A program made the translations under genes and the position numbers. The notes beneath the pieces are model-generated. The model saw nothing but the letters and a program-made list of their open reading frames with translations. It had not been told where the DNA came from and ran no database searches. Positions 3,154 through 46,924 of a stretch of 64,000 nucleotides of DNA are shown in pieces (position 1 is the first letter of the stretch; each line of letters begins with the position of its first letter). The stretch is from Aldrovandia affinis (taxonomy: Eukaryota > Chordata > Actinopteri > Notacanthiformes > Halosauridae), in contig JAINUG010000196.1 in NCBI GenBank assembly GCA_029706075.1, positions 1,211,001-1,275,000 on the forward strand, written 5' to 3'.

Positions 3154-5451
3154 CATTACATTTTTACATTTACATTTTACATTTACATTTTACATTTTAA
3201 GCATTTAGCAGACGCTCTTATCCAGAGCGACTTACAAGATGTGCATTAATACAAGGTAAGAACAATCATAGTTAGCGCACAAGATCAGTGCAGTAAAACG
3301 TCAATAGACATCATTGCAGGCGTCTGCATATCATACCTGTAACACTGGAAAAGAAAAGGTTAGTGTTTTTTATTTTTTTTATTATTTTATTTTTTTACAG
3401 TATAGAACAAGTAAACAGTGGTGATGACAGATTGACTAGATGGACAGTGTTCAGTGGTAGTGGAGTCTGAAGAGATGGGTTTTGGGTTTTGGAAGTGATT
3501 CCGCAGTCCTGACCGATTGCGGGAGGTCGTTCCACCAACGAGGACCAGGACAGAGAAGAGGCGAGACCGCGGAGAGCGGCTGCCAGGCGCCCGGAGGGAT
3601 GGGGCAGTCAGTTTGCCAGCGGAGGCGGAGCGGAGGGGTCTGGGCGGGGTGTAGGGAGTGATGAGTGAGTGGAGGTATGGGGGAGCAGTACCTCTGGCCG
3701 CTTGAAAAGCAAGCACCAGTGACTTGAATCTGATGCATGCTGCGATGGGGAGCCAGTGCAGAGAGGAGAGTAGAGGGGTGGCGTGGGTGAACTTCGGCTG
3801 GTTGAACACCAGGCGAGCAGCAGCGTTCTGGACTAGTTGCAGTGGCTTGATGGCACAGGCCGGGAGGCCTGCCAGCAAGGAATTGCAGTAGTCCAGACGT
3901 GAGATCACCAGGGCCTGGACCAGGAGTTGAGTGGCCTCTTGGGTGAGGAACGGTCGGATCCTCCGGATGTTATGGAGGGAGAAACGGCAGGTCCGAGTGA
4001 TCGCTGCAATATGGCTCGAGAAGCACAGCTGGTTGTCCAGGGTTACCCCAAGACTCCTGGCAGACTGGGACGGAGACACTATGGAGCCTTCCACGGTGAT
4101 TGACGCATCAATCATCGGGGAGCCCTTCGCTGGGAGGAAGAGCAGCTCTGTCTTCCCCAGGTTCAGCTTCAGGTGGTGGGTGGACATCCATGCGGAGATG
4201 TCAGCCAGGCATGCAGAGATCCATGCTGGGACCTGGGTATCAGATGAAGGGAAGGAGAGAAAGAGTTGAGTGTCATCAGCATAACAGTGATAGGAAAAAC
4301 CATGAGCAGAAATAACAGAGCCAAGTGACTTGGTGTACAGAGAAAATAGGACGGGGCCTAGCACCGAGCCCTGCGGGGACTCCGGTAGAGAGGGTGGGGG
4401 GAGAAGAGGAGGATCCTCCAGGCCATCTGGTAGGACCGGTCAGCCAGGGTAGGACTCAAACCATGTCAGCGCAGATCCAGAGATTCCCATCTCGGCGAGA
4501 GATGAGAGCAGGATCCGGTGGTCCACGGTGTCGAATGCCGCCGACAGGTCGAGGAGGAGGAGGACAGAGCTAAGGGATCGGGACTTAGCAACGTGAAGAG
4601 CCTCAGTGACCGCAAGGAGAGCAGTCTCTGTGGAGTGGCCTGCTCTGAACCCAGATTGGTTGGGATCAAGCAGGTCGTTCTGTAAGAGATGAGCAGACAG
4701 TTGATTATAGACAGCCCGCTCTAATGTTTTGGAAAGGAATGGGAGGAGAGAGACAGGTTGGTAGTTAGAGATGACAGCAGGATTCAGAGAGGGTTTTTTG
4801 AGGAGGGGGACAACCTGAGCGCATTTGAGGGAGGAGGGGACAGAGCCAGAGGAAAGAGAGGAGTTAATGATATTGGAGGGGAAGGAATGGGATCAAGAGG
4901 GCAGGTGGTGGGACGGTGGGAGAGAACAAGTTGAAGGATGTCCGAGTCAGGGAGGGGTGAAAAGGAGGACAGAGGGGTGGGAGGTAGAGGTAGCGGGATG
5001 AGAGAGGGAGAGGTTGGGGGGAAGGAGTTGCGAATAACATCAACCTTCTCGTGAAAGAAGGATGAGAAGTCATCGGCGGTTAGAGAGGAGGGGGGTGGGG
5101 GAGGAGGAGGGGTGAGGAGAGAGGAGAACGTAGCATAGAGTTTACGTGGGTTGGAAACAGAAGATTGAATCTTAGAAAGGAAAAATGCAGACTTAGCAGA
5201 GGAGAGGATAGCGGAGAAGGAAGCCAGGAGTGTGTGGAAATCAGACAGAGCTACAGGGGATTTGGATTTTCTCAATTTCCTTTCTGCCGCACGCAGCTTC
5301 AGTCGGTTAGCCCGAATGGAATCGGTTAGCCAGGGGGTGGGGGGGGAGACGAGCAGGTTTAGCGGATAGAGGACAGAGTAAGTCAAAGGAGGAGGAGAGA
5401 GAGGAAAGTAGGGTGGATGATGCTACCTCAGCAGGTAGCTGAGAGAAGGCA
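3154..5451 (-). mobile_element. 5'-truncated L2-clade LINE inserted in a Tc1 copy
   Basis: The 3' end lies on the left. It has the fish L2-type tail (TTTAGCAGACGCTCTTATCC, then AGAGCGACTTAC) and ATGTAAA-type terminal repeats. The insert is bounded by the 6-bp direct repeat TCAAAC at 3148-3153 and 5452-5457. The Tc1 sequence is continuous when the insert is removed (compare 60420-60450). About 2.3 kb remains, covering the linker before the reverse transcriptase, the reverse transcriptase itself and the 3'UTR. The endonuclease part is missing. It is younger than its Tc1 host copy. A second L2 3' fragment lies at 44674-45081. Confidence 0.9.
3387..5386 (-). pseudogene. L2 LINE reverse transcriptase (ORF2) remnant
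   Basis: The enzyme would copy LINE RNA into DNA at a nicked target. The longest open part (4364 down to 3387) reads [15 protein letters not shown], then the catalytic [10 protein letters not shown] box, then the thumb region ([17 protein letters not shown]). Its end, [11 protein letters not shown], is typical of L2 C-termini. Further upstream, around 4466-4669, the earlier reverse transcriptase boxes lie in another frame. The stretch at 4784-5386 carries the pre-RT linker (SFFHEKVDVIRN), again in a different frame. At least two frameshifts therefore break the gene. No start codon is native because the 5' end is truncated. Confidence 0.85.
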
Positions 5452-7349: not shown

Positions 7350-8916
7350 CACTGCTCAAAGAAATTAAGGGAACACTTAAATCATACATCGCAGATCTCG
7401 ATGAACGAAATATTCAAGTTGAAAATCTTTATTGATTACATTGTGTACATCGAGAACAAAATGATGTAAGAATGGTCAATGGAAATCATTAACCCATTGA
7501 GGGCTGGATTCAAAATCACACCCAAAATCAAAGTGAAAAATTGAGATCACAGGCTGATCCAACTTGTGTGAATTTCATCACGACAACTCATAATGTGGCT
7601 CAGTAGTGTGTATGGCCCCCACGTGCCTGTATGCACTCCCGGCAACGTCTGGGCATGCTCCTGATGAGATGGTGGATGGTGTCCTGGGGGATCTCCTCCC
7701 AGACCTGGATCAACGCATCAGTGAGCTCCTGGACAGTCTGTGGCGCTACTTGGCGGCGGCGGATGCACCGATACATAACGTCCCAGACGTGCTCAATTGG
7801 ATTCAGGTCTGGGGAACGTGAGGGCCAGTCAATGGCATCAATGCCTTCGTCATCCAGGAACTGCCTACACACTCTGACCACATGAGGCCGGGCATTGTCC
7901 TGCACCAGGAGGAACCCAGGGCACACTGCACCAGCGTAAGGTCTGACAATGGGTCTGAGGATTTCATCCCAGTACCTAACAGCAGTCAGGGTACCGTTGG
8001 CTAGCATGTGGAGGTTTGTGCGGCCCTCCAAGGATATGCCTCCCCAGACCATCACTGACCCACCACCAAACCGGTCATGCTAGATGATGTTGCAGGCAGC
8101 ATAACGTTTGCCACGGCATCTCCAGACTCTTTCACGTCTGTCACATGTGCTCAGTGTGAACCTGCTCTCATCTGTGAAGAGAACGGGGCGCCAATGGCGA
8201 ACCTGCCAATTCTGGTGTTCTCTGGCAAATGCCAATCGAGCTGCACGGTGCAGGGCTGTGAGCACAGGTCTCACTACAGGATGTCGGGCCCTCATGCCAC
8301 CCTCATGGAGTCTGTTTCTGACAGTTTGGTCAGAAACATGTACACCAGTAGCCCGCTGGAGGTCATTTTGTAGGGCTCTGGCAGTGCTCCTCCTGTTACT
8401 CCTCGCACAAAGGAGCAGATACCGGTCCTGCCGCTGGGTTGTTGCCCTTCTACGGCTCTGTTCAGCTCTCCTCGTGTAATGGCCCGTCTCCCTCCTCCAT
8501 GCCCTTGAGACTGTGCTGGGAGGCACAGCAAACCTTCTTGCGACGGCACGTATGGATGTGCCATCCTGGAGGAGCTGGACTACCTGTGCAACCTGAATGG
8601 GCTGCAGGTACCGCCTCATGCTACCAGTAGTGACAAGGGCACTAGAAAAATGCAAAACTAGAGAAAAATCTGTCAGGAAGGATAAGGAGAGAGAAATGGT
8701 CTGTGGCCACCACCTGCAAAACCATTTACTTTTTGGGGGTTGTCTTGCTGTTGCCTCTCCTGTCCACCTGTTGTCACTTTCATTTGCACCAAAGCAGGTG
8801 AAATTGATTCACAATTGTTTACGCTTACTAACTGGACAGATCGATATCCCAGAAGTTTAATTGACTTGGTGTTATACTGTGATGATTAAGTGTTCCCTTA
8901 ATTTCTTTGAGCAGTG
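7350..8916 (-). mobile_element. Nearly intact Tc1/mariner transposon, 1.57 kb
   Basis: The terminal repeats are identical over about 31 bp, starting CACTGCTCAAAGAAATTAAG and continuing GGAACACTTAA. TA lies directly outside both ends (7348-7349 and 8917-8918). The single gene on the minus strand fills most of the element, with about 250-300 bp of non-coding sequence at each end. Length and layout are those of a full Tc1-type element, and the low divergence of the two ends suggests a fairly recent insertion. Confidence 0.95.
7600..8619 (-). pseudogene. Tc1 transposase with a single in-frame TAG stop
   Basis: This enzyme would bind the terminal repeats and cut and paste the element at TA sites. 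From the ATG at 8619-8617 ([12 protein letters not shown]) to the stop at 7600 the frame would be 339 codons, the usual Tc1 size. The only interruption is TAG at 8082-8080, between YAACNII and HDRFGGGSVMVWGG, where relatives probably have glutamine (CAG). The N-terminal helix-turn-helix ([20 protein letters not shown]) is intact. The catalytic residues are visible as LFTDESRF, then VQDNARPH, then SPDLNPIEHVW. The last two are separated by 34 residues (DD34E). The start at 8655 would need TTG, so the ATG was chosen. Confidence 0.93.
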
Positions 8917-21120: not shown

Positions 21121-22384
21121 TGTTAAACTATAAGGGAATGTTCTCAATTAATATGTATTAATATCTGTATTAATATGTTCTCAAAATTAATAAGCAAGCA
21201 TTTGAGCAGGAATTTGGATTAGAGACATTATGTATTATGTTACATTGAGAACTGCATTTTACATAACGTGTTATATCATCCTTCATAAAGCATTGTATCT
21301 GTTTAGGAATGACAGATGTTATGACATGTTAATGACGTGTTTCATGAAGGATTTCAAGAAATTTACTTTGTGTAAAGTGTGGCAAAAGCAAAATAAATTG
21401 TGTCTATATTTACATCTGCATGTTATTTATACCAGTGATACATTTTTTTGTCCACTTGGAATGTTCTTTTTATTATTAATTTGACTCATTTATACGAGCA
21501 TATTAATAGTTATTATATTTGCTCTATTAAAATGTCAATGATTTATGCAACTATTTATGTTACTGAAACAAGTCAGGTAAAGAATAGTGTTATAGTTTCT
21601 GGGATTCAAACTAACACCTTTCTGGTTACAAGCTAGGTTCCATAGCTGCTATGCCGAAGCACCCATTTACTGTGTTTCAATTATTGTGTAATTGTACAAC
21701 CTACAGTTCACAAAGTAGTACAGGATTGGAGGAGCGGCTCCTTGTTATCGCTCACTGACAACAACTGGTATGCTTGGAACTTTGGGAGTAACTGATGGAG
21801 TGGTAACCCAAGCAACCGTGGCCAAATTAAACCCTCCCTACCTTTGGCAGAATCAGGCCATAGTCTGATAATAGTCAGCTATAGCTTGAACCTATAACTA
21901 TAGGGTTCAGCCTGCACTCAAGATGAGCCACCTGGAAGCCCGTCATAGCTTGGTTTGAGAGTGAGGGTGATGTCAGAGTGGAGCCAGAGCCCATGCCTTT
22001 CTTACTCTCTCTCTCACACATGCTCTCACTCACTCTGTCTCACTGGTGAGCGTGCATACCGCAGTGCTGGGAGAAATGGGTATCGATTACCCATTTGTTT
22101 TCCAGCAGTGCCTCTTGCGGGGGCAAGCCCCCTGACAGCAGGTAATGGCAGTGCAATGGAGAAGATGAGTGGGCTCTGCACTCTCAAACCCTGGCTCTCC
22201 ATCTTTTTCATCTCCCTGCTCCTTTTATTTTCTATTTTGGCCTTCATTGCTCCCCTCCTCCCTTGTGAGAAAAAAGTACATGTGTTAATACAGTATGTGG
22301 TAGGATATGCAATTAATTTTGGAATTTGGAATACATATTTGAATCACTGCTTCTTTCAGGCAGTAGAGAAAATATATAGATATA
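21121..22384. other. Gene-free stretch with a possible tRNA-like SINE relic
   Basis: At about 21595-21665, read on the minus strand, the order GGGTGCTTCGGCATAGCAGC, ACCAGAAAGGTGTTAG, TTTGAATCCCAG resembles a tRNA-SINE head with a B-box. The hydrophobic frame at 22165-22270 shows no family features. The 17-bp stretch CAGGCAGTAGAGAAAAT occurs at 22357 and again at 22385, duplicating the end of the next element. Confidence 0.35.
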
Positions 22385-23975
22385 CAGGCAGTAGAGAAAA
22401 TAATGAAAACCCCAACCAATGCATGAATATCTATTAACTAATAAGTAGTTGCTGCCCTTTGCCTTCAGAACAGCTTCAATCCTTCTTGGAATGCCGTTAT
22501 ACAAGATTTGAACTGTTTCTAGTGGGATATTGGACCATTATTCATAAAGGAAAGCCTCTAGTTCTTTCAGAGATGAAAGCAGTTTAAATGAACTCTGCAC
22601 TCTTCATTCCAGAACTTCCCGTAAAGGTTTAATGACGTTTAGATCTGGTGATTGGGAAGGCCATGGAAGGTGTTTGACATCATCCTGGTGTTCATGAAAC
22701 CACTTTTCAATCTATTTATCAGGGTCATGGCTAGATAGTAACCCTATTTTGTCCAACTTTTTCCAATAGTAACCCTATTTTGCGAGGTTTGACTAAGTCC
22801 CCATAGTAACGAAGGAAAGCATCCAACCCTCGCTCCAGCTGTCTTATACCCACTAGCACTATGAAACACGGCAAACCCTAACTCCAGTCTCTATGGCACT
22901 TTGATGATTTTTTTATTTTGCTGCTGTTGTCATTGCAAGATCATTCCGCTAAAATAATAGTTTATCTTGCAAATTTCTATGATGAACTTAACGTAGCTAC
23001 AAGTAACCTTAGCTATCTTATTCTCAGTTCCATTCACAACGCTGAACTTAACGTAGCTGCAGGTACCCATAGCTAATGTTAGCTAGCTATCTAGTTTATT
23101 CACAGCTGCACAGCTGCACAACAAACCTTAAGTCTATCAAATGGGAACACCCTATAAATCATTTAACCAAAGTTATTTATGCAAACTGAGAGTTGCTCAA
23201 AAGGCTTGGTAAGAAAACGTTCTCAACTCAAATTCAGATATATATAATATACAGACATTTTTGTTCGCTCTTTATACTGTTTCATGTAAATATTAAACTC
23301 TTTCAAGAACTGAAATTTTGTATGCTGCCACCGTTAGCCATTTGTCTCACCAAATAGCGGCAAATGCACATGCACAAGATCTGGGAAGCAATAGGGTTAC
23401 TATCTAGCCATGATCTTGACGAAAAAATGTTTGCACCATAAGGTGCACCTGGTTGCCTAAAATGGCTTTGTAATTTTACTATACAGAGTAATAATTGGAC
23501 TCCCACAAGATGGCTGCACATACCATAGCAGATTCAGCACCATGTTTAACAGATGGGAACAGGCAATGTAGGTTGAAGTCTTCCTTTGGCTTTCTCTAAG
23601 CCAAAAAGAGTAAAAAACAACTCATCAGACCATATTGCTTTCTTCCACTGCTCAGAAGTTTTGAACTCATTTCCCCACTTATGCATTGTTGCGTATTGAC
23701 CTTGGTCACATGCGGTTTATGAATATCAGCCCTACCATAACTAGATACAGTTTTTGTTGACACTGGGTCATGGAGGTGTAGATTCAGTTATGCGGTCATT
23801 TGTGAGGTTGATAGTTTTTAGTAACTATCCTGTTAAGTGTGCCTGTCCCTGTCAGTGAGCTTTGAGTTGTGACCAACGTGCCTCTTTCCTGATGCAGTTT
23901 TTCCTTTTCCTTGTTTTAAATAATATTGCCACTCTATTAAATAATATTGCCATGTGAATTTTCCATTTTTCTATT
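22385..23975 (-). mobile_element. Tc1/mariner relic (same group as 16730-17380), interrupted
   Basis: On the minus strand, transposase pieces can be followed: the HQDD, PSQSPDLNVI-type and SLKELEAF parts at 22480-22720, and the earlier middle region (SDELFF-like, TPNFLSSGRK-like) at 23600-23700. The left end starts CAGGCAGTAGAGAAAATAAT. The right end is not clear and is placed approximately. Stops and frameshifts are common. Another inverted-repeat element is inserted at 22725-23413. Confidence 0.7.
22725..23413. mobile_element. Inverted-repeat element inserted in the Tc1 relic
   Basis: TCATGGCTAGATAGTAACCC at 22725-22744 is matched in exact reverse complement at 23394-23413. The motif AGTAACCCTATTTTG is repeated at 22738-22752 and again about 30 bp later. 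The interior contains GCTAGC-rich sequence and no gene. The flanks on either side both belong to one Tc1 relic. The target duplication could not be read with confidence. Confidence 0.7.
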
Positions 23976-30115: not shown

Positions 30116-31360
30116 CACTGCCCATCCAAAAAAAAAGTCACACACTAATATTTAATTGGACCGCCTTTAGCTTTGATTACAGCACGCATTCGCCGTGGCA
30201 TCGTTTCGATAAGCTTCTGCAATGTCACAACATTTACTTCCGTCTAGAGTTGCATTAATTTTTCGCCGAGATCTTGTATTGATGATGGGAGAGTCGGACC
30301 GCTGCGCAAAGTCTTCTCCAGCACATCCCAAAGATTCTCAATGGGGTTAAGGTCTGTACTCTGTGGTGGCCAATCCATGTGTGAAAATGATGTCTCATGC
30401 TCCCTGAACCACTCTTTCACAATTTGAGCCCGATGAATTGTGGCATTGTCATCTTGGAATATGCCCGTGCCATCAGGGAAGAAAAAATCCATTGATGGAA
30501 AGACCTGGTTATTCAGTATATTCAGGTAGTCAGCTGACCTCATTCTTTGGGCACATAACGTTGCTGAACCTAGACCTGACCAACTGCAGCAACCCCAGAT
30601 CATAACACTGCCCCCACAGGCTTGTACGGTAGGCACTAGGCATGATGGGTGCATCACTTCATCCGCCTCTCTTCTTACCCTGATGCACCCATCACTCTGG
30701 AACAGGGTAAATCTGGACTCATCAGACCACATGACCTTCTTCCATTGCTCCAGAGTCCAATCTTTATGCTCCCTAGCAAATGTAAGCCTTTTTTTCTGAT
30801 TAGCCTCACTGACAAGTGTTTTTCTTAAGGCTACACAGCTGTTTAGTCCCAATCCCTTGAGTTCCCTTCGCATTGTGCATGTGTAAATGGTCTTACTTTC
30901 ACTATTAAACATAGCCGTGAGTTCTACCGTTGATTTTTTACGATATGATTTCACCAAACGTTTAAGTGATCGCCGATCACGATCATTCAATATTTTTTTC
31001 CGACCGCATTTCTTCCTCGAAGATGATGGTTCACCACTATCCTTCCAGGTTTTAATAATGCATTGGACAGTTCTTAACCCAATTTGAGTAGTTTCAGTAA
31101 TCTCCTTAGTTGTTTTCTTTGCTTGATGCAGGCCAATAATTTGACCCTTCTGAAACAGATTAACATCTTTTCCACGACCACAGGATATGTCTTCCGACAT
31201 TGTTGTTAAGAAATGAAAAGCTACTCACTGCATCAGTTAGGGTTAAATAACTTGTTGCCAGCTAAAACATATTAATCACTGCAGTAATTATCCAATGGAA
31301 GGCTCTTACCTATTTGCTTAGTTAAATCCAGGTGGTGACTTTTTTTTGGGCCAGGCAGTG
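30116..31360 (-). mobile_element. Nearly complete Tc1/mariner element, DD36E type, 1.25 kb
   Basis: The ends read CACTGCCCATCCAAAAAAAA and, in reverse complement, CACTGCCTGGCCCAAAAAAA, with AGTCAC following both. TA lies directly outside (30114-30115 and 31361-31362). One transposase gene fills the minus strand. The size and the close spacing of gene and ends are those of a complete element. Confidence 0.93.
30244..31200 (-). CDS. DD36E-type Tc1/mariner transposase, truncated by a late stop
   Basis: The ATG at 31200 opens [14 protein letters not shown] and the frame runs 318 codons. Two N-terminal helix-turn-helix parts ([16 protein letters not shown]; a GRKK motif between them) are followed by the catalytic boxes [21 protein letters not shown] and [14 protein letters not shown]. 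The last two acidic residues are 36 apart, as in the DD36E (Incomer) group. The TAG at 30246-30244 probably replaces a tryptophan codon (TGG). The same frame stays open for about 34 more codons (LIETMPRRMRAVIKAKGG) to a TAG near 30140. All three catalytic residues are kept, so whether it is inactive cannot be decided from sequence. Confidence 0.9.
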
Positions 31361-41741: not shown

Positions 41742-42380
41742 ATGTTATATGATATAATTATATAACATATATTATTTATAATTTGTTTGTTTAACATATT
41801 CATACTTCATTCTTTGCTTCGTTTTTGATGCTTTTTTCCTCATGGACACCATTTTGGTTAAACTTTTACATAATAAAGCATTCAAAAAGTGACCTACAGT
41901 GCTGTTGGTGAAGGGAATTTGGCACGGGCATCAGTACCACCACTGTTCTATATCCCTTTCCCAGCCTCTCTCCCTGCAGGGCCCATTCCAAAGGCAGCCT
42001 GCACGCCACCTGTCGGTATTGACTAAAAAAAGTTAATAATAGAATTATGCTAGTGTACTCAGCTTAATTGAGCTGTAAACTAAATTCTAAGCCAAACAAC
42101 AATGCATGCTGTAGCTGTATGCAGAATTTCTCATTCTTGAATGCATAAGCCTCCATCTGAATACCATATTTCCCAACGTTTATTAATGTTTGACTAAAAA
42201 TCAACAGAGTAGTTTAAATACTTTATTAGGCATTAATAGCGCACCATAGTCAAACAAAGTGCTACCACTTACACTGTGTAAAACAAAGGAATTCAAGTGT
42301 AAATTCACATTCTCAGTGTCCTTACGGTTTGAATGCTCTCCCTTACACCTGTGTGTGTGTGTGCATGTGTTTCTGTGCAG
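41742..42380. other. Gene-free stretch before the receptor-like exon
   Basis: AT-rich sequence, then at 42348-42375 a TG-rich tract that forms part of the presumed acceptor region. If the exon call is right this is intron sequence between a non-coding exon and the first coding exon. Confidence 0.45.
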
Positions 42381-42432
42381 GTGGCTGTGACAGGGGGACC
42401 CCCAGGGCAGGACCCATGAGGAGTCATAGAAG

Positions 42433-42514
42433 ATGCTCGCAGTCTGGGCGCCTCTGCTCCTCTTAGCCATGTGTGCGAGAGGGACCTCCAGCAGCCCGCT
42501 TTCCCTGAGAATCG
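42433..42514 (+). CDS. grik4: First coding exon of a secreted/membrane protein, probably kainate receptor GRIK4 (KA1)
   Basis: The exon appears to run 42381-42514. The acceptor TTCTGTGCAG ends at 42380 and the donor GTGAGT starts at 42515. The ATG at 42433 has an in-frame TAG at 42427-42429, which fixes the start. The 27 codons begin MLAVWAP, have a hydrophobic core LLLLAM and end SPLSLRI plus one base, so the intron is phase 1. This is a signal peptide with the start of the mature chain. Human GRIK4, as I remember it, begins with a signal peptide ending near SPHSLRI and continues AAILDD; a following alanine codon fits phase 1. GRIK4 is an ionotropic glutamate receptor subunit at synapses. 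The next exon was not found in the window. An out-of-frame ATG at 42416 gives a 16-codon upstream frame overlapping the start. The exon is well supported, the gene name less so. Confidence 0.6.
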
Positions 42515-42887
42515 GTGAGTGATACCTCATGCCCTACATCCTACACTGTATTCCCTATACCTTAAAATCTGCACCCTCACACCATGCATCTTGTTTCCTG
42601 TATTCTACACCTTACGTCCCATTCCTACAACCTGCACCCTGTGAATGGCCTCTCCAGGCAGGAAGCAACTCCCTCATGTACTGTAAACAGGATTCCCTCT
42701 GTCCTTAAAAATCTTTGTATTCCATGGTCCTTAAAAATAGTTTCATCCTGTAAAGTCATGGAAAAGGCACAGAGAGTGGTCAAATATCCTTATATCCATG
42801 AAAAGATGTGGACAATTGCCTTAACAACGAAAACATTATATTTGTACAAATTTTCCTTTTAGGAAAGTCGAATCGAGGGAGATAGTG
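42515..42887 (+). other. Intron start after the receptor-like exon
   Basis: The donor GTGAGTGATACC is followed by CACC/TACACC-rich sequence. No other feature was recognised before the LINE at 42888. Confidence 0.45.
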
Positions 42888-43768: not shown

Positions 43769-44030
43769 CAGATATTTTCATTCAATCCATAATCACTGGA
43801 GAAATACCAGGGGCCTCATTTATAAAAAGTTGCGTAGAAATGATCTAAGATCATTTCTGAAATGTGCGTAAGTGTGATTCAGAGAAACGCCAGTCCCCCA
43901 GATGTGAAATCTATAAATCGCAAATGATCTTGAAATTGTGCGCAAGTGAATGGTTTTAGATCTCCGCCTTGTAAACGCCCCCTAATTAATATCATTAGCA
44001 TATAAAGGAGCTCGAAACAAATCCTCTACT

Positions 44031-44270
44031 TTGAGCTGGAAGAAAAGTAATTTTAGCAAGCTCGAAATCGAGGTCCTGTTGGCGGAGGCGCAGATGCGTG
44101 CAGGGACGCTGTTTGGGAGCCTTTCCAGTGGCTTTACCAGTAAAACCAAGGATGTGGCCTGGCAGTCTGTAGCACAGGCTGTGAACGGGGGGCAGCAAAC
44201 GTCCCTGAAGGACGTAAAGAAAAAGTGGTCTGATTTAAAACTGAGGTCAAAATCTCTAATAACTCGTTCC
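44031..44270 (+). pseudogene. Harbinger Myb/SANT-like DNA-binding protein fragment
   Basis: Harbinger elements encode a second, Myb-like protein that carries the transposase to the nucleus and to the element ends. The frame reads NFSKLEIEVLLAEAQ, then LFGSLSSGF, then VAWQSVAQAVN and LKDVKKKWSDLKLRSKS. This matches the helices and the KKW..LK end of Myb/SANT-like proteins (NAIF1-type). The open frame begins at a TTG, so the native start is not certain. After about 80 codons the similarity ends, although the frame stays open to 44501. Confidence 0.82.
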
Positions 44271-44579
44271 CTTCTTATTGCGCGGTTGGCGATATCTTCG
44301 AGAAGCGAAGCCATTCTTCCTCTTACAAACCACTGCATTATTGGACATTTTATAGCCTACAGATTGACCGAAATGTATGTTTTACACGCGTGGAACCATA
44401 ATATGTATGAAATACATTTCAAGGATGTGTCAATTATGCTAATAGGGGTAGTTTTGGAAAACCAATGTGCGTTTTTGTTTTGTTTTCCACAAGTAGCCTA
44501 GCTTATGTTGTTTTAATTTATTAATACATTTATTGTGCAAACTATTACATATAGCCTAAGCAATGTGTTCAATCTGGTA

Positions 44580-44673: not shown

Positions 44674-45081
44674 GATTTTACATTACATTTACATTTTAAG
44701 CATTTAGCAGATGCTCTTATCCAGAGCGACTTACAATATGTACATTAATACATGGTAGGAACAATCATAGTACGCGCAAGAGATCAGTGCAGTAATACAG
44801 CAATAAACCATTGCAGGCAGCTGCATACCATACCTGTAACACTGGGAAGGAAAAGGTTTGTCAATTATTATTTTTTTATGGAGTAAGCAGGGGTATATAG
44901 TGTTGAGCAAGTAGGCAGTGGTGATGACAATTAGCTAGATGTACAGAATTCAGTGGTAGTGGAGTCTGAAAAGGTGAGTTTTGAGTCTCTTGCGGAAGAT
45001 CGCAAGTGATTCCGCGGTCCTGACCGATTGCGGAAGATAGTTCCACCAGCAAGGGGTCAGGACAGAGAAGAGACGAGACCG
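44674..45081 (-). mobile_element. L2 LINE 3' fragment with 6-bp target duplication
   Basis: CGAATA lies at 44668-44673 and 45082-45087. The insert has the L2 tail (TTTAGCAGATGCTCTTATCC) on the left and, on the minus strand, the C-terminal peptide SRLFSVLTPCWWNYLPQSVR, then [12 protein letters not shown]. It is about 408 bp, the result of early-stopped reverse transcription. The 6-bp duplication has the same length as for the L2 at 3154. Confidence 0.9.
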
Positions 45082-45578: not shown

Positions 45579-46924
45579 CCCCCTGAGGTCGGCTGGATCG
45601 GCGCCGATCCAAGCAGCAATACAAGTATATTACTATTTCTAACTTCGCGATATTTTATCATACACACGCGGCAAAAACATTGACAGAAACCTTAGAATCG
45701 CGACTTTCCGATTTGAGCACTGGCAAATCAAATGGGATTTTAAAATGAGCTTAATTAGACCAAAAGTAAACCTTGCTTTTACTCTGTTTTTTACCTTTTA
45801 GTAACGTCCCCCTTCTATTGACATGTTAACGAGGTGCTAATTTCGGGAGGTGCGTCGGGCCATGTGTGAAAACGCCGGCATAAACAACACAAACTGAAGA
45901 GGACAGTCTATGCTGATATTTATTTTATTTCGCTTGTTTTCAAATACTCGTGAAAATATATATAAATTCGCGTCTTGTGACTACATATTCCGCATGTCGC
46001 AATGTAACAAATTGCAATAGGCACAGAAAATACTTTTCAAACAGCCTAAAATGTTATAAAATATATCGTATGTCTGTGTTTACGCTTGCAATCTGCCAGC
46101 AACAGTATATTCACGAGTATATTTTCAAATACTCGTGAAAATATATGAATTCCGCGTCTTGTGACTACATATTCCGCATGTCGCAATGTAACAAATTGCA
46201 ATAGGCACACAAAATACTTTTCAAACAGCGTAAAATGTTATAAAATATATCGTATGTCTGTGTTTACGCTTGCAATCTGCCAGCAACAGTCTATGCTATT
46301 GATTTTATTTCGCTTGTTTTTATTTTTTACATCTTGTCTGTGTTTACGCTTGCAATCTGACAGCAACAGTCTATGCTGATATTAATTTTATTTCGCTTGT
46401 TTTCAAATACTCGTGAAAATATAGCCTATGAATATCGCGTGTTGTGACGCCAAACATTCCGCGTGTTGCAACGTAACAAAGAGCCAAAATGAATATTCAG
46501 GTATTTAGCATTTAGCCCTCCCACAGCCTGAAATAAATGTGACCAGTTCTGATAAAAACAGGTTTTAGCTATTTAGATCTCAGATGTGCTAAACTATTTT
46601 CACACCCTTACATAACCAAGACCTTGGTGAACAAACGCACATTGGCAAAACAATTCGTCACTATAGTTTAGTGTGTGCTTTCACATCTTTTGTGACAGCA
46701 GAAAAATTTACTATTTTTAACTTGTGTGTTTGTAGATCTATTTACAAGCTGCATATGATACTGACCAAACTATTGATGGCATACAAATGTAGCTGTGATT
46801 GTCCTTCAAATAAAAATATCAAACACTTTGGAGTAAGTGTGTGTTAAATTGATGAAATTGAGATAAATATCAGACCATGCCAAAATCTAAAAACATCTAA
46901 AATCTTAGCACGGACCTCAGGGGG
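45579..46924. mobile_element. piggyBac-like non-autonomous element flanked by TTAA
   Basis: TTAA lies at 45575-45578 and 46925-46928. The ends are CCCCCTGAGGTCGG and, in reverse complement, CCCCCTGAGGTCCG, so the first 12 bases match exactly. TTAA plus C-rich short ends is the piggyBac signature. No transposase frame is present in 1346 bp. The interior is built of long imperfect tandem repeats (next entry). Confidence 0.9.
45937..46450. repeat. Long tandem repeats inside the piggyBac-like element, first period 185 bp
   Basis: CAAATACTCGTGAAAATATA starts at 45941, 46126 and 46404. Between them TCTGTGTTTACGCTTGCAAT followed by CTG(C/A)CAGCAACAGT recurs at about 46073, 46258 and 46338. The first two units are almost identical over 185 bp, while the third interval is shorter in content and rearranged. 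At 46111-46140 the sequence TCACGAGTATATTTTCAAAT, then ACTCGTGA, is a near palindrome. Confidence 0.88.

Follow-up and report, generated by a model that had tools for sequence, protein, structure and literature searches.

GRIK4 is a brain glutamate receptor gene, and its product GluK4 (formerly KA1) is a high-affinity kainate receptor subunit of vertebrates; its sister kainate receptor gene, GRIK5, encodes GluK5 (formerly KA2). Here we consider 64,000 nucleotides of the genome of the halosaur Aldrovandia affinis (C1068:1211001-1275000, hereafter the window, to which coordinates without a contig prefix refer), together with the 200 kb that follow it on the contig. A preliminary description, made from the letters of the window, had singled out a lone receptor-like first coding exon and assigned it, as probable, to GRIK4. 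Comparison of sequences makes it almost certain that a GRIK4 gene of intact appearance lies on the + strand of C1068, with 42381-42514 as its start-codon exon, an identification supported by a partner exon farther along the contig, by an open frame of 838 residues, and by a homologous exon in a second gene on C2566. The gene is an ordinary GRIK4 orthologue. Its start exon ties the window, rich in repeats, to a large synaptic receptor gene, which is useful for annotation, and is now fixed 45.8 kb away from the remaining coding sequence.

The Start-Codon Exon

The predicted exon (42381-42514, + strand) comprises 52 nt of 5'UTR (42381-42432) and 82 nt of coding sequence (42433-42514), and its G+C content is 63% compared with 40% for the window. 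On an approximate Shapiro-Senapathy-type scale, the 3' splice site AG ahead of it (42379-42380) scores 82 and so belongs to the top 0.86% of the 7919 AGs counted over the two strands, while the GTGAGT 5' splice site that follows it (42515-42520) scores 87, a value reached by 35 of 7233 GTs. An in-frame TAG at 42427-42429 fixes the start codon at 42433, which opens 27 codons, MLAVWAPLLLLAMCARGTSSSPLSLRI, plus one base (phase 1), up to the exon end at 42514; this first coding segment would supply the signal peptide and the first mature residues of GluK4. The acceptor, the TAG-fixed ATG, and the GTGAGT donor had all been pointed out in the preliminary description, and all are present at these positions. 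The signal peptide is a candidate on the basis of its hydropathy score (2.9). The acceptor tract is TG-rich, with 9 pyrimidines in the 15 bases before CAG, and fails a strict filter of at least 10; the sole mini-exon passing all strict filters together with a hydrophobic core of at least 2.0 lies on the minus strand at 44826-44735 and is unrelated. The reverse-strand frame 42204-42533, which overlaps the start exon, has no Pfam match.

Aligned without gaps, MLAVWAPLLLLAMCARGTSSSPLSLRI is identical to the human GRIK4 reference at 13 of 27 residues and to rat GRIK5 at 7 of 26. The phase-1 tail SPLSLRI, whose resemblance to GRIK4 had prompted the original assignment, bears this out, with six of the last seven residues identical to the human GRIK4 reference versus three of seven for GRIK5. 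When residues 2-27 were shuffled, none of 100,000 shuffles reached the observed 13/27 against the human GRIK4 reference, whereas shuffling residues 2-20 only gave 1916 of 100,000 that reached the observed 7/20 against the same sequence. The peptide evidence is therefore concentrated in the tail, the first 20 residues by themselves being weak evidence. For GRIK4, 24 of 5000 shuffles equalled the gapped local alignment of the peptide, compared with 849 of 5000 for rat GRIK5, and in 60 windows simulated with a Markov-3 model the ATG-to-donor mini-exons reached at most 4/7 identity in the seven-residue tail. Taken alone, the peptide makes a good but not closed case for GRIK4. The human GRIK4 and rat GRIK5 references are provisional sequences, including the first 27 residues of GRIK4; as checks on them, the rat GRIK5 N-terminus agreed with 7ks0 at 50 of 50 residues and the GRIK4 ligand-binding segment with 5ikb at 112 of 113 (hand count on the alignment). 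No match to the 27 residues, whether by themselves or extended with AAILDD, was found in the Protein Data Bank, and a literature search with peptide words found no paper.

The Downstream Gene

A tblastn search of the following 200 kb with the human GRIK4 reference produced 17 strong, colinear matches on the + strand, the first beginning at C1068:1299307, which reach from query residue 28 to the last one, 838. The preliminary description had predicted an AAILDD-type phase-1 exon downstream, and such a partner exon starts at C1068:1299308, on the same contig and strand and 45.8 kb past the start exon. The sequence at its acceptor is ...CTTCCTCAG followed by CCGCCATT, so that ATC G joined to CC GCC reads I-A-A, in the phase that had been predicted. 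A splice scan placed the junction between the start exon and the AAILDD exon in phase 1, and the scanned stretch offered no competing candidate.

A splice model guided by the provisional GRIK4 query contains 18 coding exons including the start exon and encodes 838 residues with no stops, up to C1068:1436207; because the model was fitted to that query, its length and gaplessness are biased towards that reference. It ends at C1068:1436207 because the query ends there, so a C-terminal tail beyond residue 838 is left out. At one junction, that preceding extended coordinate 224382, both donor and acceptor are poor, and its placement may be wrong. In this fitted model the amino-terminal domain, the ligand-binding domain, and the channel including SYTANLAAFLTVQRM lie in one open frame, and the arrangement expected of GRIK4 is present, namely a candidate signal peptide followed by SLRI, a phase-1 junction, and the AAILDD exon (the N-terminus of the reference being provisional).

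In expression of the gene, splicing would join a noncoding exon farther upstream to position 42381 and translation would start at 42433, with the signal peptide directing the receptor subunit into the secretory pathway, as expected of the family. The start exon would be spliced at 42514 across the 45.8-kb intron to the AAILDD exon, which opens the amino-terminal domain, and the product would be a GluK4 subunit.

A Second GRIK4-Like Gene

A protein search of the genome located a second gene at C2566:1421589-1500886, with 10 colinear GRIK4-like matches that are 63 to 95% identical; some of these matches extend into introns, and the best candidates alone were scored. A start exon homologous to that on C1068 was sought in the 40 kb preceding the C2566 AAILDD exon and found at C2566:1393795-1393932, 27,657 bp before it. 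This exon has GTGCAG/GTGGCTG at its 5' edge, matching the acceptor edge at 42381, and 27 codons, MVAVGASLLFFAMWVRTTTSLPLSFRI, ending in phase 1 at a GTGAGT in the place that corresponds to the donor on C1068. The start exons of the two copies are 80% identical over 136 aligned columns. In an alignment that included 500 bases of flank per side, local similarity begins at 42361 or 42375, depending on which of two scoring schemes is used, and stops at the final donor base, 42520. Flanks of 150 bases are identical at 67 of 138 and 57 of 119 positions, within the range of unrelated sequence (40 pairs; median 45%, maximum 59%, with 7 of 40 at 48.6% or more).

The genome protein search also recovered two weaker loci of kainate receptor type, C469:2679036-2683253 and C913:797564-806626, which may be duplicated copies of GRIK5. 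The duplicated GRIK4-like and kainate receptor loci suggest, on sequence grounds, a teleost-type duplication. Elsewhere in the genome, a dense array of ANF_receptor matches occupies C1668:1735322-1970362 and looks like a class-C receptor gene cluster, such as the fish olfactory V2R/OlfC genes.

The Flanking DNA

The preliminary description took the DNA on both sides of the exon to be intronic if its assignment was right. Downstream of 42514 this is the case, because the AAILDD exon 45.8 kb on and the rest of the gene follow on the same strand, and 42515-64000 is the first 21.5 kb of a 45,793-bp intron (+ strand) that ends at C1068:1299307 and is rich in transposon remains. The span of this intron is also the reason that the window holds no other GRIK4 exon: a kainate receptor exon had been expected in the following sequence, and the expectation fails inside the window but holds beyond it, where the 17 GRIK4 matches lie. 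Within the window, tblastn with the GRIK4 reference gave nothing convincing, the best of the matches listed (25.8 bits, E 0.31) falling in a reverse-transcriptase frame, and a search for the AAILDD exon returned a best real match of 17.3 bits. As a positive control for the AAILDD exon only, a synthetic rat GRIK5 exon was found in three of three copies of the window at 69.3 bits, so the search would have picked up that exon.

The window upstream of the exon is probably intronic as well, because the C2566 copy has an acceptor edge matching that at 42381. When CpG content was scanned to find a first exon upstream, scattered stretches came up on both sides, of which 3401-5201 and 7601-8051 fall in transposon frames, and no such exon was located. 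Skipping of human GRIK4 exon 9 is described in PMC8257547, and coding exon 7 of our model (162 nt, 54 residues) has the same size as that exon. If the two correspond, the start exon would be the third exon of the gene, and one would expect an acceptor ahead of its ATG.

Several repeats were recognized in the window. UnaL2 LINE 3' elements score above the Rfam gathering score at 3195-3247 (-) and 44694-44747 (-), the former beside LINE frames that match reverse transcriptase (3387-4889). Tc1/mariner-type transposase regions (HTH_Tnp_Tc3_2, DDE_3) are present at 7603-8808 (-), where the region is split over two stop-to-stop frames, and at 30247-31224 (-), where it is a single frame of 326 residues. 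Within the first GRIK4 coding intron, a 171-residue stop-to-stop frame (43986-44498, +) carries a Myb/SANT-like DNA-binding domain (PF13873, E 9.4e-13) and probably derives from a Harbinger-type transposon. A 184-bp unit is repeated 1.9 times at 45937-46294 with 95% matches, and the frame at 21949-22434 has no Pfam match.

Alternative Explanations

Short open frames of this form are common, the window containing 22 ATG-to-GTRAGT mini-exons compared with a mean of 21.3 in 60 simulated windows, and a chance frame could therefore lie beside a genuine GRIK4 gene that has its true start exon at another place. We regard this as extremely improbable given that a homologous exon occupies the corresponding position of the C2566 gene in the same phase, the similarity stopping at the donor. 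Moreover, when the exon was searched as DNA against the genome (1.22 Gb, 2576 contigs; very common words skipped), it matched at the C1068 and C2566 places only, and its tail is unlike that of any other mini-exon ahead of the AAILDD exon: among the 40 phase-1 mini-exons on the + strand of that interval, the start exon and its internal ATG have a tail score of 25 and the others at most 6. The reality of the exon is thus decided comparatively, by its recurrence in the C2566 gene and by the partner exon downstream.

Assignment of the exon to GRIK5 instead would draw on the SLR-AAILDD junction, which is common to the GRIK4 reference and GRIK5, and on the full-length model, for which the top solved structure is GRIK5 7ks0; among the structure matches listed, GRIK4 is represented solely by 5ikb, a ligand-binding construct of 257 residues. 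When the ligand-binding segment is compared with solved structures, it ranks GRIK4 first (5ikb, 204.8 bits, versus 184.5 for GRIK5 7ks0), and the gene as modelled is 79% identical to the provisional human GRIK4 reference versus 70% to the provisional rat GRIK5 reference. By pairwise identities and bit scores, then, the gene is closer to GRIK4 than to GRIK5, so that GRIK4, the gene named in the preliminary description, is the better fit over the whole protein as well as in the ligand-binding segment. The tail of the peptide also sides with GRIK4, and the weaker-matching loci on C469 and C913 may themselves be the GRIK5 copies. We therefore give membership of GRIK5 a very low probability and retain GRIK4 as the source of the exon.

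The 5'UTR and an Upstream Reading Frame

The two GRIK4-like copies differ in how the parts of their start exons have been kept. The 5'UTR part shares 48 of 52 aligned bases, with a 4-base indel in addition, versus 62 of 82 bases in the coding part, where 13 codons are identical and 3 have synonymous and 11 non-synonymous changes. Little purifying selection is seen in the coding part alone, because 11 of 27 codons differ by amino acid and 3 are synonymous. Signal peptides are often variable in this way.

An upstream reading frame of 16 codons and a stop (42416-42466, +), out of frame with the main ATG, overlaps it; the C2566 copy has 20 codons and a stop. The peptide is MRSHRRCSQSGRLCSS on C1068 and MRSHRRWWQSGRLCFSSPCG on C2566, and both run past the main start. 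A run of 26 bases, GGACCCATGAGGAGTCATAGAAGATG, spanning the upstream ATG and the true ATG, is identical in both copies. The 5'UTR might be a constrained control element in which the kept upstream ATG and overlapping frame would hold down translation of GluK4, although we consider this rather unlikely. A splicing signal could be an alternative cause of the conservation, and the comparison consists of two sequences, too few to decide between the two. The conserved overlapping frame offers a small clue to how the amount of GluK4 might be controlled.

Comparison with Known Kainate Receptor Genes

Among described genes, GRIK5 resembles this locus in its SLR-AAILDD junction, seen at the N-terminus of 7ks0, and in the match of 7ks0 to the model over residues 8-832. 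It differs in that 583 of 831 aligned residues are identical (rat GRIK5 reference) and in its signal peptide, for which the ungapped identity is 7 of 26. The likeness to GRIK4 is closer: the first segment has 27 residues, as in the human reference, of which 13 are identical, the phase-1 junction precedes AAILDD, and 665 of 838 residues are identical to the provisional human GRIK4 sequence. What separates the Aldrovandia affinis gene from GRIK4 is ordinary species divergence.
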